Shown here: piece after piece, positions 719 through 61,044 of the stretch
Layout: every line of letters starts with the position of its first letter
Position numbering within the stretch: position 1 is the first letter of the stretch
From: a virus
IMG/VR virus record: IMGVR_UViG_3300029448_000003
Location: 46,915 to 110,914 of that record
Direction: 5' to 3' (one strand)
Length of the DNA stretch: 64,000 nt
The notes under the pieces: model-generated
Databases searched by the model: none
Seen by the model: the letters and a program-made list of their open reading frames with translations, nothing else
Told to the model about the DNA's origin: nothing
Made by a program: the position numbers and the translations under genes

Positions 719-1891
719 TTATTTTACTCCTTCAAATATGTGGGCAATCACATCTACTGTCCACCCATTGCCTAACATCTTATAACGTTGGGTGTTGGAG
801 ATGGTATCCCACTCTTGTTTTTTATCATTATATTTTCCAAACTGTGTGTAATTATCAGGCACAGTTTGTAGTCTTTCACACTCCAATGGTGTTAGCTTTC
901 TATATAATTCTTTCTGTACTACAACATTGTCCTTGTGGACAGTTGTCAAACAGTTTGACTTATCGCTATCACTTACTTCTAACTGTCGTGTAAATGGTAG
1001 TTCAAGTTGGTCATCCTTTCGTACTCCATTCTTATCAAGCCTACGATTAACAAGCCTACCAATGGCTACCTTTGGTTGTCTATGCCCACCCTGCATAGTC
1101 GTGAGTGTAGGACTCTTCCCATTAGGTGAGTATACTCGCTTGATAATGTCGTACCCCTTGATGTTGGTAGCATTACCTACTTGTATGGGTTTCTTTACAT
1201 AGGTAGGTATCTGTCCTTTGTACATAGATGCAGTAAGACAGTTAGCCTTTGGGTCATCAACAGACTTTACCATATCACCTCTACGTCTACCACACCATTC
1301 ATTCTCAAGATAGTTTGGTATCTTGTGGAAAGGTAGGTTTTCAAGTATGTCACTAATAACAATGCCCTTGTCCTCTATCTGTGGTATAGGTATCTGCTCG
1401 TACTCCTTTGATTCATTTAAGAATCCAAACCAATATAGCCTATGTCTATTCTGTGCTGATGCATCAGCAGAGTTAATCATCTGTGGTTCAAAGCCAATGA
1501 ACTCTGATATAACATCTTGAGATTCTTTTTTCATGCGAACATTCTCCAAGAGAATATACTTTGGTTGTAGCATATCTCGTATACGTATGAACTCAAAGAA
1601 TAGTTTACTGCGTGGGTCATCAAAGTTTAACTGTTTGCCTGCAAAACTAAAACCTTGACATGGCGAACCACCCATAAGCAAGTCACACTCTATATCCCAT
1701 TTACTTGCCGTACTAGAAGTAAACTTTGTAACGTCACCTAGTTGTACTGTGTTTGGATAGTTTTTCTGTGCCACTTGCATTGGATAGTTTTCTATCTCGC
1801 AAGCATAATAATTCCTATAGTCAATGCCCACTCTATTGAGTGCAATCTGACCACAAGACATACCATCAAATAAACTGACTACATCTTTCAT
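719..1891 (-). CDS. DNA (cytosine-5-)methyltransferase, canonical motif order
   Basis: This is a 390-residue C5-cytosine methyltransferase that moves a methyl group from AdoMet to cytosine in DNA, probably shielding phage DNA from restriction. All key motifs are present in normal order: motif I LFDGMSCG (residues 7-14), the PCQGFS catalytic loop with Cys78, the ENV motif at 116-118, QNRHR at 147-151, a target recognition region in the middle (about 170-320) and motif X GNGW at 374-377. The ATG directly abuts the stop of the coiled-coil gene upstream, implying translational coupling. Its paralogue at 59875-61044 shares the target region but has motif I moved to the C-terminus. The recognition sequence cannot be read from the protein. 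Confidence 0.95.
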   Translation of the reverse strand: MKDVVSLFDGMSCGQIALNRVGIDYRNYYACEIENYPMQVAQKNYPNTVQLGDVTKFTSSTASKWDIECDLLMGGSPCQGFSFAGKQLNFDDPRSKLFFEFIRIRDMLQPKYILLENVRMKKESQDVISEFIGFEPQMINSADASAQNRHRLYWFGFLNESKEYEQIPIPQIEDKGIVISDILENLPFHKIPNYLENEWCGRRRGDMVKSVDDPKANCLTASMYKGQIPTYVKKPIQVGNATNIKGYDIIKRVYSPNGKSPTLTTMQGGHRQPKVAIGRLVNRRLDKNGVRKDDQLELPFTRQLEVSDSDKSNCLTTVHKDNVVVQKELYRKLTPLECERLQTVPDNYTQFGKYNDKKQEWDTISNTQRYKMLGNGWTVDVIAHIFEGVK

Positions 1892-4343: not shown

Positions 4344-4652
4344 TTAAGTTAGCTTTATTAATAAGAGTGCTAACTCTTCAGTTGGTAGGTATCCCTTTAC
4401 CCCACCTTCAAAAGTGCCATCATCTACATAGTTATAATCACTATCTAGAATTGCGACCTCTACTCGTTCTGCGTAGTCACCATACCTACCACCTATACTA
4501 TCATAAGGTGCATTCTTATCGTTCTGAACGATAGATATGTAACGATTACCTTTAATAGGTAATACGATTTGATTTGCAGTTTCATCTCCAAAGTTTTTCT
4601 GAAACTTTTTGTTAATTAAATCAGCGAAAGTATAATCCATTTTCATTTTCAA
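4344..4652 (-). CDS. Hypothetical protein, 102 aa
   Basis: The protein begins MKMKMDYTFADLINKKFQKN and continues with a mixed alpha/beta-like sequence including GNRYISIVQND and VEVAILDSDYNY. I do not recognise it. An AAGGAG site lies upstream of the ATG. The second and third Met are alternative starts two and four codons in. Inverted repeat 2 (4663-4726) lies immediately upstream. Its coding sequence contains hairpins TATCGTT-CTG-AACGATA and ATTACCT-TTAAT-AGGTAAT. Confidence 0.65.
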   Translation of the reverse strand: MKMKMDYTFADLINKKFQKNFGDETANQIVLPIKGNRYISIVQNDKNAPYDSIGGRYGDYAERVEVAILDSDYNYVDDGTFEGGVKGYLPTEELALLLIKLT

Positions 4653-4662
4653 ACTCCTTATA

Positions 4663-4726
4663 AGTTACATATAAATAAATAAAACACTTTTATATACATT
4701 TCAAGTGTTTTATTTATTATGTAACT
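4663..4726. repeat. Inverted repeat 2 with conserved 13 nt loop
   Basis: The arms are 4663-4689 and 4703-4726; they pair over 24 bases with a 3 base bulge in the left arm. The loop TTATATACATTTC is identical to that of inverted repeat 1, while most of the stem is different. It lies between the stop of the membrane protein (4729) and the start of the gene at 4652. Confidence 0.75.
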
Positions 4727-4728
4727 AA

Positions 4729-4917
4729 TTACTTCTTACACAACGGAATGGCAAGAACACAAACCATACCAAACACTATTAACATAGTGCCAATTATGGT
4801 CAATATCATAGGCTGTACGTTTACATTCCATGCTACATCTATGGATAAACATACAAGTGAAATAGTACCAAGTACTATTGTAAAATTACAGATAAAGTTA
4901 TGTATAATGTTATACAT
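4729..4917 (-). CDS. Small two-helix membrane protein, 62 aa
   Basis: The protein has two predicted transmembrane stretches: about residues 9-28 (FICNFTIVLGTISLVCLS) and 36-58 (PMILTIIGTMLIVFGMVCVL), and ends in a short basic tail LCKK. There is no clear signal peptidase site. It overlaps the last base of the gene upstream, as expected for an operon. It could be a holin-like or superinfection protein; nothing in the sequence decides this. Confidence 0.55.
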   Translation of the reverse strand: MYNIIHNFICNFTIVLGTISLVCLSIDVAWNVNVQPMILTIIGTMLIVFGMVCVLAIPLCKK

Positions 4918-5198
4918 TATAAAGTCTCCAAAAAGTTTGTAAGAATGTTAATACATTCTTCTGTTTCAGTTGGTTGTGTAAACAACCCTTTGCTCCCATG
5001 ACTATACAAAGCCATAGGCTTCATGTCAACGTTCATCTCTTCCTTCTCATATTCCGAAGGAAAGCTAGATGTTACACTAGATGGGTAATCTAGATTAAAG
5101 TTACGATTGCCCTTCTTGGAACAAGAAGTCTTACCCCATCTACGATTGTAAAACAATCTAGGGTCAGGTGGACACTTAGTTACAGATACATGAGTCAT
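4917..5198 (-). CDS. Hypothetical protein, 93 aa
   Basis: The protein begins MTHVSVTKCPPDPRLFYNRR and is polar with two separated Cys near the N-terminus (residues 9 and 26). No family is recognised. AAGGAG lies upstream of the ATG at 5198. Five perfect hairpins fall inside its coding sequence, including CTTCTTG-GAA-CAAGAAG and GATTGT-AAA-ACAATC, so its codons appear constrained by nucleotide-level structure. Confidence 0.6.
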   Translation of the reverse strand: MTHVSVTKCPPDPRLFYNRRWGKTSCSKKGNRNFNLDYPSSVTSSFPSEYEKEEMNVDMKPMALYSHGSKGLFTQPTETEECINILTNFLETL

Positions 5199-8965: not shown

Positions 8966-10002
8966 ATAAAATGATTTATACATTTAGTATATTTTTAACT
9001 TTAGTAGGCACTATATCTAGTGCTGTCGCAAGAGAACAAATAAGGATAGTCGGTTCTAGTACTGTTTATCCATTTTCAACAATCGTTGCAGAGAAATTTG
9101 CACAACAAGGAAATCCAGCTCCTATTGTAGAATCAACAGGTTCAGGTGGTGGAATGAAATTATTTTGTGCTGGTGTAGGTTTAGAACATCCAGATATTAC
9201 AAACGCATCAAGAGCAATTAAAGATAAAGAAGCTACAACTTGTAAGAAAAATGGTGTTGCATTTACAGAGTTTGTTGTAGGTAATGATGGACTTGCATTT
9301 GCAAATTCAAACGAAGGACAAAAATTTAGTATTTCTATTGCACATATAGCAGCGGCACTTGCAAAAGAACTCCCTAAAGATGGGTCTATGCAAGATAATT
9401 TTTTGATGACTTGGGATGAAGTAGATGCTTATGTGCATAAACAAATGGGTCATCCGATTTTAAATTTACCAAATCAAAAGATTGCAATTATGATACCACC
9501 ACCAACCTCTGGAACAAGAGATGCAATGGGTTCTTTGTTTATGAAGAATGGTTGGAAGAAACTAGGGTTATATTCTGGTGACACGAAAGGTGGATATAAA
9601 GTATTAAGAGAAGATGGTGTTGCAATAGAGATGGGCGAAAACGATAATTTAATAGTAGAAAAATTAGTTGCAGATTCAAATTTATTTGGTGTTTTTGGTT
9701 ATTCCTTTTTTGACCAAAATAGAGATAAAGTCCAATCCTCTATAATTGATAATATAGAATTAACTTTTGATAATATTGCATCATATCAATATCCGGGTGC
9801 TAGACCATTATTCTTTTATGTAAAGAATGACCATATTTATGCAATACCAAACATGTTAAGTTATGTTGAAGAATTTGTGTCAGAGAGGGCTATGAGTATT
9901 AATGGATATTTATTTCCAGCAGGGCTTGTGCCTTTATCAAATGATGACTATGCAAAACAAGTTGATGCATTATCAACATTAAAGGAAAACAAACATGATT
10001 AA
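8962..10002 (+). CDS. pstS: Phosphate ABC transporter substrate-binding protein PstS
   Basis: This 346-residue protein is a full-length periplasmic phosphate-binding protein. Residues 1-23 form a signal peptide likely cleaved after SAVA. The mature start IRIVGSSTVYPFS, then STGSGGGMKLFC and PPTSGTRDAMG, are the phosphate-contacting loops of PstS. It would raise high-affinity phosphate uptake of the infected host, an auxiliary metabolic role known for marine phages. It is embedded in the rightward late block rather than next to other phosphate genes, and no Pho-box-like site was recognised upstream. It is probably transferred from a host. Confidence 0.93.
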   Translation: MNKMIYTFSIFLTLVGTISSAVAREQIRIVGSSTVYPFSTIVAEKFAQQGNPAPIVESTGSGGGMKLFCAGVGLEHPDITNASRAIKDKEATTCKKNGVAFTEFVVGNDGLAFANSNEGQKFSISIAHIAAALAKELPKDGSMQDNFLMTWDEVDAYVHKQMGHPILNLPNQKIAIMIPPPTSGTRDAMGSLFMKNGWKKLGLYSGDTKGGYKVLREDGVAIEMGENDNLIVEKLVADSNLFGVFGYSFFDQNRDKVQSSIIDNIELTFDNIASYQYPGARPLFFYVKNDHIYAIPNMLSYVEEFVSERAMSINGYLFPAGLVPLSNDDYAKQVDALSTLKENKHD

Positions 10003-10126
10003 TTGGGATAAAATTAAATTTGATATGTGGAATAAAAGATTTGGCGAAGGAACTAATTTTGATTTAGACTATGGTAAGTTACTTATTATAGGTCTATTAG
10101 TGTATCACATCTTTTTTCAAGGTTAG
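9995..10126 (+). CDS. Tiny single-helix membrane protein, 43 aa
   Basis: The frame begins MINWDKIKFDMWNKRFGEGT and ends with one hydrophobic helix (LLIIGLLVYHIFF). It overlaps the pstS stop by 8 bases and ends 2 bases before the next gene. No family is recognised, and the role is open. Confidence 0.45.
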   Translation: MINWDKIKFDMWNKRFGEGTNFDLDYGKLLIIGLLVYHIFFQG

Positions 10127-10128
10127 CT

Positions 10129-10401
10129 ATGGTTTTAAAAAGACATCAAAATCCTTCTGGTGGTTTAAACGCTGCAGGTCGAGCACACTTTAAAAAGAAA
10201 GACGGCAGTAATCTTAAACCACCTGTAAAAGCAGGAGTTAATCCTAGAAGAGTTTCTTTTGCTGCACGATTTGCAGGTATGAAAGGACCTATGAAAAAAC
10301 CTAATGGTGAACCTACACGTAAGGCATTAGCGTTAAAAGCATGGGGTTTTCGTAATGAGCAATCAGCGAGAAATTTCGCAAACAGGCACAAAAAAACATG
10401 A
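10129..10401 (+). CDS. DUF6321-like phage protein, 90 aa
   Basis: The protein contains NPSGGLNAAGRAHFKKKDGS, NLKPPVK, RRVSFAARFAGM and KALALKAWGF, the conserved blocks of a small basic family frequent in marine phages that I believe is DUF6321. The domain fills the whole protein. Function is not established; its basic charge and place between phosphate and lysis genes give no direct clue. It overlaps the next gene by 4 bases. Confidence 0.75.
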   Translation: MVLKRHQNPSGGLNAAGRAHFKKKDGSNLKPPVKAGVNPRRVSFAARFAGMKGPMKKPNGEPTRKALALKAWGFRNEQSARNFANRHKKT

Positions 10402-58886: not shown

Positions 58887-59193
58887 ATATCGCTTCCCCA
58901 TCTTCGTTAAATTTAATCTTACTATTGTTTACTTCTGTAATAATAACATCTGTGTGTGTATGACCCATAGCATGACCTACACCATGTCCTATGTCGTGTT
59001 GTTTTACATGACCATCTAGATAAACTACCTCTCCTCTGATACCATGTATTGCCCAACCTTTCATATATTTTATATGTGCATCTATAACTTCTTCTAATGT
59101 GTTACCTTGAACATATTCAACTCTAGTTATTGGCTCATCTAGAACTGAATCATATCTACTATTAGCAACGTAGACTACTGTATATTTATTCAT
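58879..59193 (-). CDS. His-rich hypothetical protein, 104 aa
   Basis: I start it at MNKYTVVYVANSRYDSVLDE, which overlaps the stop of the SleB-like gene; a longer frame to 59226 lies within that gene. Residues about 63-82 read HVKQHDIGHGVGHAMGHTHT, six His plus GH repeats that could bind a transition metal. The rest has strands flanking a helix. No family is recognised. Confidence 0.65.
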   Translation of the reverse strand: MNKYTVVYVANSRYDSVLDEPITRVEYVQGNTLEEVIDAHIKYMKGWAIHGIRGEVVYLDGHVKQHDIGHGVGHAMGHTHTDVIITEVNNSKIKFNEDGEAIYE

Positions 59194-59617
59194 AATGTAT
59201 ATCCCATCTGTAAAATATATGGTCATCTATTCGTGTTATGTACGTCTTACTACTCGCCCATGATGGTAGTACATAGTGAGCATGGTAGTGTGTTGCACCC
59301 TCTACAAAGTCATCAAGGTTGCCATAGTACACACCATGAGCTACTAACATAGCTTTATCCCATGCCTGTTCATCTCTAGGTTTATCACTCTTACCATCAC
59401 AGTACCAACTAAACTGACACTTATTGCGAATAGGTATAGATGGATTCCATTTATATGTTAATCCTTGTTTAACGACATCACAGACGTTGTTAGGATATCT
59501 TTCATCTCTAACCCTATTCATTGTTACTTGTGCTACTGCTATCTGTCCTATCAAAGATTGGTTTTTACTCTCGTGATATACGTTGAGTGCTAGACACATC
59601 AATGCTTCAACTATCAT
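59186..59617 (-). CDS. SleB-like cell wall hydrolase (copy 2)
   Basis: This 143-residue protein has the Hydrolase_2 pattern: LALNVYHESKNQSLIGQIAV, then VTMNRV, CDVVKQG, CQFSWYCDG, AMLVAHGVYYG and DDFVEGATHYHAHYVLPSW. Glu of YHE is the probable catalytic acid. It would cleave peptidoglycan, perhaps at entry or lysis, and is separate from the lysozyme of the late block. Most of it aligns with the partial gene at 1-279. There is no signal peptide, though the N-terminal ten residues are hydrophobic. Confidence 0.85.
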   Translation of the reverse strand: MIVEALMCLALNVYHESKNQSLIGQIAVAQVTMNRVRDERYPNNVCDVVKQGLTYKWNPSIPIRNKCQFSWYCDGKSDKPRDEQAWDKAMLVAHGVYYGNLDDFVEGATHYHAHYVLPSWASSKTYITRIDDHIFYRWDIHYE

Positions 59618-59871
59618 TTACTTCTCCATGCTGATTCATCACTTTCAAGAACATAATCACACCACCATTTTGCACCATCTCCATCATCATCTTTTTGAGG
59701 AACGAATCTAAGAGAATCATGTAGATGGTGATTCAATTCTACTAACATAGATATTTGTGTTAGTGTTATATCTTTACATTCCTCTATGTATGTTATAGTT
59801 TCTTTTAGCTTGTTATGTAGTCTTAGAAACTCCATACGTTGTTCTTCAGTTACTAAAATATCTTTTACCAT
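59614..59871 (-). CDS. Hypothetical protein, 85 aa
   Basis: The protein starts MVKDILVTEEQRMEFLRLHN and is helical and acidic with WWCDYVLESDESAWRSK at the end. No family is recognised. It is located between methyltransferase copy 2 and SleB copy 2, overlapping the latter by 4 bases. The first cassette has an unrelated protein in this place, so this slot is variable. Confidence 0.65.
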   Translation of the reverse strand: MVKDILVTEEQRMEFLRLHNKLKETITYIEECKDITLTQISMLVELNHHLHDSLRFVPQKDDDGDGAKWWCDYVLESDESAWRSK

Positions 59872-59874
59872 TGT

Positions 59875-61044
59875 TTATTCCCTTTCTGTTGTTTTTAATG
59901 CTTGTTGTCCACAAGAGATGCCATCAAAGAGTGCCATAACATCTCTTAGATCACCCTCAATGCCCTTAAATATCTCATTGATGACAGATACTGTCCAACC
60001 ATTGCCTATTGCCTTGTAGCGATTAGATTTAGCGACAGGCATATATGCTATAGACTTCTCTCCATCTTTTTTATACCTACCCATAGCTGTATAATCTCTA
60101 GGTAAAGTTTGCAAAGATTCACATTCAGTAGGCAATAGTTTTCTCCATCTTAAACCATCATCATCTACAACTATGTTATCCTTTTGTATCGTTGTTAGAC
60201 AATTTGTTTTATTATCTTTTCTAACTTCTATTTTTTCAGTATAAGGTAATTCTAATTGGTAGTCTTTTCGTACACCATTTTCATCTAGCCTACGATTAAC
60301 TATTCTACCACCTTTAGCATCATACGTTGCCACTTTAGGTTCTCTATGCCCACCTTGCATAGTCGTTAGAGTGGGAGATTTCCCATTAGGTGAGTAAACT
60401 CTTTTGAGTATATCAAACCCTTTAATTTCAGCAGTTTCACCTATCTGAACCATAGTACGTTGCTTACGTTCTATACTGTTCCACCAAACTGCTCCATTGT
60501 ATCGTGCTGTTAGGCAATGGGATTTGCCCTTTTTATTAGTCATCATAGGATTAGACACACCATCTTCCTCTAGTATATCAGCTAATACTATATTCTCATC
60601 TTTAATATCTGATGGATTAAATGGTATGTTTGTTATGTACATTCTCACTCTATTTTGTGCTGATTTTAATGCACTATTGACAATGTACACACCAAAATTA
60701 TCGCCTACGACATCTCGTATGGCATCTATCATAATTTTCTCATTAGTCTTAGACATCTTTACATTTTCAAGTAGAAAATATTTAGGTTTAATCGCCCTTA
60801 GAGCATCAACAAACCTATAGAATAGCTGTCCACTCTCTGCTTTAAACCCATCTCGTTTTCCTGCTACTGAGAATGATGTACAAGGCGAACCTGCCAATAA
60901 TAAATCTACATTACGATACTTGTCACTATAGGCATCTATATTATTGACATCACCTAATTGTATAGTGTTTGGGTGTTGATATTGAGTTATTGCGATTGCG
61001 TGTTTATCTAATTCTGACGCAAAGTAATTGTTATATTTAATCAT
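59875..61044 (-). CDS. Circularly permuted DNA (cytosine-5-)methyltransferase
   Basis: The 389-residue protein lacks the N-terminal AdoMet motif I of its paralogue. It begins directly at the region equal to paralogue residue 23 (IKYNNYFASEL), then has GSPCTSFS with Cys55, ENV at 93-95, QNRVR at 130-134, a target recognition region nearly identical to that of copy 1, and motif X GNGW at 347-350. Motif I, ALFDGISCG, follows at residues 371-379. All motifs are therefore present but rotated. The ATG abuts the stop of the coiled-coil gene as in copy 1. It probably still methylates DNA, as motif X and motif I are close in the fold; activity is unproven. Confidence 0.92.
   Translation of the reverse strand: MIKYNNYFASELDKHAIAITQYQHPNTIQLGDVNNIDAYSDKYRNVDLLLAGSPCTSFSVAGKRDGFKAESGQLFYRFVDALRAIKPKYFLLENVKMSKTNEKIMIDAIRDVVGDNFGVYIVNSALKSAQNRVRMYITNIPFNPSDIKDENIVLADILEEDGVSNPMMTNKKGKSHCLTARYNGAVWWNSIERKQRTMVQIGETAEIKGFDILKRVYSPNGKSPTLTTMQGGHREPKVATYDAKGGRIVNRRLDENGVRKDYQLELPYTEKIEVRKDNKTNCLTTIQKDNIVVDDDGLRWRKLLPTECESLQTLPRDYTAMGRYKKDGEKSIAYMPVAKSNRYKAIGNGWTVSVINEIFKGIEGDLRDVMALFDGISCGQQALKTTERE

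Follow-up and report, generated by a model that had tools for sequence, protein, structure and literature searches.

A circularly permuted C5 cytosine methyltransferase with its break between motifs I and II in an HMO-2011-like phage

The window, the whole stretch of 64,000 nucleotides analysed here, covers positions 46915-110914 of a virus contig of 110,914 bases (IMG/VR record IMGVR_UViG_3300029448_000003). It encodes P0001, a C5 cytosine methyltransferase in which motif I stands at the C-terminus, after motif X. With a probability of roughly 85%, P0001 is a complete, single-chain, orphan permuted enzyme with an ordinary C5 fold and a likely anti-restriction function, probably derived from the canonical enzyme that occupies the same slot in HMO-2011-like phages. 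The gene and its parts are the following (TRD, target recognition domain).

59875-61044, minus strand: circularly permuted C5 cytosine methyltransferase (P0001), 389 amino acids, motif order II-III-IV-VI-VIII-TRD-IX-X-I
61012-61014, minus strand: acidic residue of motif II, E11, 10 residues past the new N-terminus; aligns with M.HhaI from residue 37 on
60880-60891, minus strand: motif IV, GSPC (residues 52-55), with the catalytic cysteine C55; invariant in the alignment of relatives
60160-60594, minus strand: variable region (residues 151-295) with three TRD-like segments ending in HCLTA, PTLTT and NCLTT
59995-60006, minus strand: motif X, GNGW (residues 347-350)
59908-59934, minus strand: motif I, ALFDGISCG (residues 371-379), relocated to the C-terminus, with the alphaA helix and the stop codon after it

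P0001 does not follow the canonical linear order from motif I to motif X. Its N-terminus is MIKYNNYFASELD, and it begins between the positions that motifs I and II take in canonical relatives. This order marks it as a permutant and not as a non-member of the C5 methylases. Motifs IV (PC), VI (ENV), VIII (QNRxR), X (GNGW) and I (FxGxxxG) are all found, with near or full invariance across relatives, and none of the catalytic residues C55, E93-N94 and Q130-N131-R132 is altered. The initial annotation had described the PC loop, ENV and QNRxR as intact, and its coordinates, strand and residue numbers for GNGW and ALFDGISCG are exact. The protein scores 127 bits against Pfam PF00145 (cut-off 22), in an alignment that starts only at profile position 21, and 137 bits against TIGR00675 (dcm; cut-off 100.65). 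BLASTP aligns it with the canonical protein encoded at window positions 719-1891 in two out-of-order segments, residues 2-363 with 23-390 and residues 366-383 with 1-18. The canonical relative L149 gives the same picture (2-363 with 21-405 at 49% identity, 368-383 with 1-16). On rotation of the permuted sequence, the two segments become a single full-length BLASTP match to canonical relatives; the gene is therefore a unit-length circular permutant, which bears out the earlier proposal of a permutation broken directly after motif I. The break itself lies between the helix after motif I (alphaA) and motif II (strand beta2).

The start of the permuted gene has a good ribosome-binding site, and an in-frame TAA immediately precedes its ATG. 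The 600 nucleotides upstream encode nothing like motif I in any frame, and the 600 nucleotides downstream no peptide resembling motifs II, III or IV. The provision of motif I by an upstream fragment or a frameshift was rejected on the first of these grounds.

The same motif order is found in nine further full-length IMG/VR contigs at 85-88% identity. The loci L074, L077 and L078 (about 62-66% identity) are likewise permuted, and the fragments L010, L032, L048 and L075 carry the same junction from X to I. A divergent enzyme, L213 (about 42%; its gene has a short run of N in the middle), is broken at the same place, with motif II following its start and motif I preceding its end. As the order recurs in the nine contigs and in L074, L077 and L078, neither chance nor assembly error explains the permutation. 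An error that removed motif I from the N-terminus was one refutation foreseen by the initial annotation; a chimeric assembly could also have joined the motif to the C-terminus, and the contig does join two phage genomes, as described below. However, that join lies about 50 kb from the gene, the contigs sharing the junction come from many separate metagenome datasets and the C-terminal block is under selection, so that an artefact is refuted by independent contigs and its remaining probability is negligible.

Selection is strongest where the permutation has placed motif I. The ratio of nonsynonymous to synonymous polymorphism (pN/pS) is 0.245 over the gene as a whole and falls to 0.147, the lowest value among five blocks, in the block that holds the C-terminal motif I; residues F373-T386 are invariant in ten sequences, and the block remains nearly invariant across relatives down to about 65% identity. 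These values bear on a different explanation, in which a second copy has been lost except for its start, now the C-terminal motif I, and the enzyme is an inactive, decaying remnant of a tandem duplication. Tandem C5 methyltransferase arrays are common in phages: in a scan of viral contigs for motif X followed by motif I within about 15-25 residues, the two motifs lie in separate frames at 45 of 66 loci, nearly all of them tandem methyltransferase genes, and one permuted locus, L061, still has such redundancy. The gene of P0001, by contrast, is of unit length with every motif present, its supposed remnant is its most constrained part, and no other motif I able to complete the enzyme occurs in the half of the contig that carries it or within the 600 nucleotides upstream. 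A decaying remnant is thus very improbable.

Structure prediction is consistent with a complete enzyme. AlphaFold2 was given a 144-row alignment of window and locus proteins, with canonical motif I fragments aligned at the C-terminus. The predicted local distance difference test (pLDDT) score is 74 overall and above 90 in much of the catalytic core; a C-terminal strand (368-371) and helix (378-385) score about 86-88, as expected for beta1 and alphaA. Since the motif I rows were supplied as fragments, the model supports a closed fold but does not prove it. In a Foldseek search of the PDB the top match is M.HhaI (E 9e-15), and M.HaeIII and DNMT3 are also among the best.

In the predicted ordinary C5 fold, the old C-terminus (the helix of motif X) would be linked to the old N-terminus (beta1 and motif I) by about six residues, and the chain would end after alphaA. 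The C-terminal beta1-alphaA unit would pack beside beta2 and close the S-adenosylmethionine (AdoMet) pocket, while the PC-loop cysteine and the ENV and QNRxR residues would carry out normal catalysis. An active enzyme is the most likely reading; it would methylate short sites of one or more kinds in the phage DNA and thereby shield it from host restriction. Such protection is an established role of phage C5 methyltransferases in general. The three TRD-like segments may be separate TRDs. In two permuted relatives (L074:2199-3449, minus strand, and L077:938-2206) the first segment differs from that of P0001 and the other two are retained, which appears to be module swapping within the variable region. 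The enzyme could also be active with another main role, such as methylation of host DNA, a packaging mark or gene control: no restriction partner was noticed near the gene, and orphan phage methyltransferases can have other roles. Such a role is unlikely here, as no evidence points to any specific alternative and the several TRD-like segments with their swapping suit evasion of varying host enzymes. The multispecific methyltransferases of Bacillus phages show comparable evasion.

The genomic setting bears on where the permutant came from. Most HMO-2011 core genes that match the contig match it twice, in order, once in each half, and the genome of Puniceispirillum phage HMO-2011 is 55 kb. The contig therefore consists of two related HMO-2011-like phage genomes joined end to end (A and B, about 56.8 and 54.1 kb), both halves carrying the syntenic core genes in the same order; a natural double genome of 111 kb is unlikely. 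The join and the relevant neighbours in the window are listed below.

9920-10132: approximate join of phages A and B; identity to contig bases 1-213 is 93%
719-1891, minus strand: canonical C5 methyltransferase, 390 amino acids, in the equivalent slot of phage A
61045-61764, minus strand: coiled-coil-like gene of phage B, upstream, 239 amino acids; its TAA stop codon abuts the methyltransferase ATG
59614-59871, minus strand: downstream gene, 85 amino acids, function unassigned, retained beside most permuted relatives
59186-59617, minus strand: cell wall hydrolase (PF07486), a member of the cassette

In both phages the methyltransferase, canonical in A and permuted in B, occupies the place between the hydrolase gene and the coiled-coil gene. 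A second methyltransferase in phage B was rejected as a candidate, its half of the contig containing no other match to PF00145. The initial annotation had set the permuted gene beside a canonical paralogue; with two phages joined and one C5 methyltransferase in each, the protein at 719-1891 is instead a counterpart in another phage. The stop/ATG junction with the coiled-coil gene, said to be shared by the two genes, is indeed present in phage B, but several permuted relatives have a different upstream gene. Wherever a permuted relative has enough flanking sequence, the adjoining integrase, primase and helicase genes are of the HMO-2011-like kind.

In a careful tree, built from rotated sequences, L213 falls in the permuted clade (support 96/96), whose sister consists of the canonical enzymes of phage A, L149 and L159, all in HMO-2011-like phages (98/93). 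L149 sits in the same cassette and shares its first TRD-like segment nearly letter for letter with P0001. Since the canonical same-slot enzymes are nearest in one of two trees, an origin within the HMO-2011-like group, in the same slot, is likely. The canonical same-slot enzyme of such a phage would have been duplicated in tandem, the X end of one copy fused to the I end of the next, and both outer ends trimmed. Two contigs match what permutation by duplication predicts. In L061 the I-III tail of the permuted gene recurs as a direct repeat of 281 nucleotides (88%) in a separate fragment with motifs I-III (4557-4949):

L061:4557-5862: the repeat pair, from the redundant I-III fragment (5′) to the I-III tail (3′)

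L034 (1057-2340, minus strand) encodes a canonical enzyme with an in-frame N-terminal extension corresponding to the TRD/IX/X end of another copy. Each intermediate is represented by one contig. The earlier suggestion of an origin inside the phage cassette is therefore plausible from one tree, and that of tandem duplication with deletion has its relics in L061 and L034 but none at the window gene itself, for which this route is the presumed one. At L029, L045, L064 and L224 (Psychrobacillus phage Perkons), C5 methyltransferase genes stand in tandem, from two to several per array, with their neighbouring ends close together.

Several points weigh against the reading of P0001 as an active enzyme of ordinary fold and same-slot origin. 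A first AlphaFold2 run with ten permuted sequences alone gave a mean pLDDT of 39.6 and was not used, and the 144-row alignment itself favours the C-terminal placing of motif I. The Foldseek template modelling (TM) scores are modest (0.54/0.63), which a poorly modelled variable region explains in part. A larger second tree does not resolve the sister group of the permuted clade. Finally, the engineered enzyme cp35M.MpeI, which we infer to be split between motifs I and II like cp33M.SssI, is poorly soluble; it is active in vivo in E. coli (PMC5944983).

Permutation in phages extends to a second break point, between motifs III and IV. The motifs are read through in one frame at 21 of the 66 loci of the scan, some of which repeat contigs of the 85-88% set; one, L059, was rejected as a false pattern match. 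Five contigs (L020, L033, L061, L066 and L098) encode enzymes whose first motif is IV and whose last is III. The same layout is found in phage nd4 (OR777945.1, L221:1981-3657), whose protein WRQ08028.1 is annotated as 'hypothetical protein', and a search with this protein returned 35 contigs (within L225-L262) with X, I, II and III consecutive in one uninterrupted frame. MT835543.1, with a frame break before motif X, is left out of these counts. In the larger tree the nd4-like enzymes have canonical ones from Ruminococcus as their sister group (100/99) and lie at a great distance from the L033 group. Two origins of the III|IV break and one of the I|II break are therefore probable; in the same tree L098 separates from the other four members of the L033 group. 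In an approximately unbiased (AU) test, a single clade of the I|II and L033 groups is not formally rejected (p 0.074). On the trees, permutation seems to have arisen on about three occasions, once as I|II among marine HMO-2011-like phages and twice as III|IV, in the L033/L061 and the nd4-like groups. It appears probable that phage C5 methyltransferases acquired breaks inside the AdoMet-binding domain independently, three times or more, by way of tandem arrays, with intermediates still extant and with topologies that have no natural example in the survey of 2018 discussed below.

Other scans were negative. A generic scan of viral contigs for a junction from GNAVxP to FxGIGG gave four matches and no permuted enzyme, and one with a longer linker returned tandem genes or chance matches only. 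Among 84,980 bacterial and archaeal species, a scan for WTV to FDG[IM]xCG, which would miss nd4-like enzymes (MYDG), found no such permutant; its only matches were due to chance (two) or to tandem genes of canonical order in two Ruminococcus genomes. Introns or other known RNA families at the breaks of the III|IV group were considered and rejected. Many nd4-like enzymes carry several TRD-like segments, and one (L241:1858-4500) is interrupted by an intein immediately ahead of the motif IV catalytic cysteine (GGSP/CFSGDTLI...VHN/CTKWS), with a Hint_2 match above cut-off. The matches of the PHROG profiles phrog_17284 and phrog_16427 to P0001 run through motif X and on into motif I at the C-terminus, so that PHROGs may already contain unrecognised permuted or fused enzymes.

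The permuted layout thus occurs in many phages, at two different break points. The phage enzymes show that topologies broken in the AdoMet domain arise and spread among natural populations, where strong purifying selection maintains them. The tandem arrays, the X-to-I fusion of L034 and the I-III relic of L061 are material for testing the model of permutation by duplication, and the natural permutants are ready parts for split or switchable methylation tools.

Among known systems, the nearest are the canonical enzymes of HMO-2011-like phages (719-1891, L149, L159 and CRP-603), which come from the same phage group and a similar slot and share 37-49% identity and TRD-like segments with P0001, but have the ordinary order from I to X. 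The nd4 protein and the III|IV families (L033/L066/L098/L061/L020 and L225-L262) are also phage permutants broken in the AdoMet half; unlike P0001 they start at IV and end after III, and they form separate lineages on the trees. The split C5 methyltransferases M.AquI and M.EcoHK31I, which need two polypeptides, likewise have an unusual arrangement of motifs, whereas P0001 has all of them on one chain and in one open reading frame. Permutation in nature was previously known from breaks in the variable region. Albert et al. found 27 permuted C5 methyltransferases in REBASE in 2018, all broken there, including the natural type H enzymes M.BssHII, M.Alw26I, M.Esp3I and M2.BsaI (PMC5944983). They built active permutants of ten break types and reported no natural counterpart in REBASE for those broken in the AdoMet domain, proposing for one type that weaker AdoMet binding is the reason (PMC5944983). 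The initial annotation had called the permutation unusual, and this survey, the only published one, indeed contains no natural enzyme with the I|II topology (PMC5944983); none with a I|II or III|IV break was found in the open PubMed Central literature, REBASE itself not being searched. By the order of types in the survey, P0001, with its new N-terminus between I and II, would be of type A (PMC5944983). Like the type H enzymes it has motif X before motif I in one chain with intact C5 motifs, but its break lies inside the AdoMet-binding domain, whereas theirs, as in M.BssHII, lies in the variable region between VIII and the TRD. The break is the same as, or neighbours, those of cp35M.MpeI, cp33M.SssI and cp62M.MpeI, the last of them split between II and III and all of them active in E. 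coli (PMC5944983); those enzymes are man-made, and the enzyme of the window is natural.
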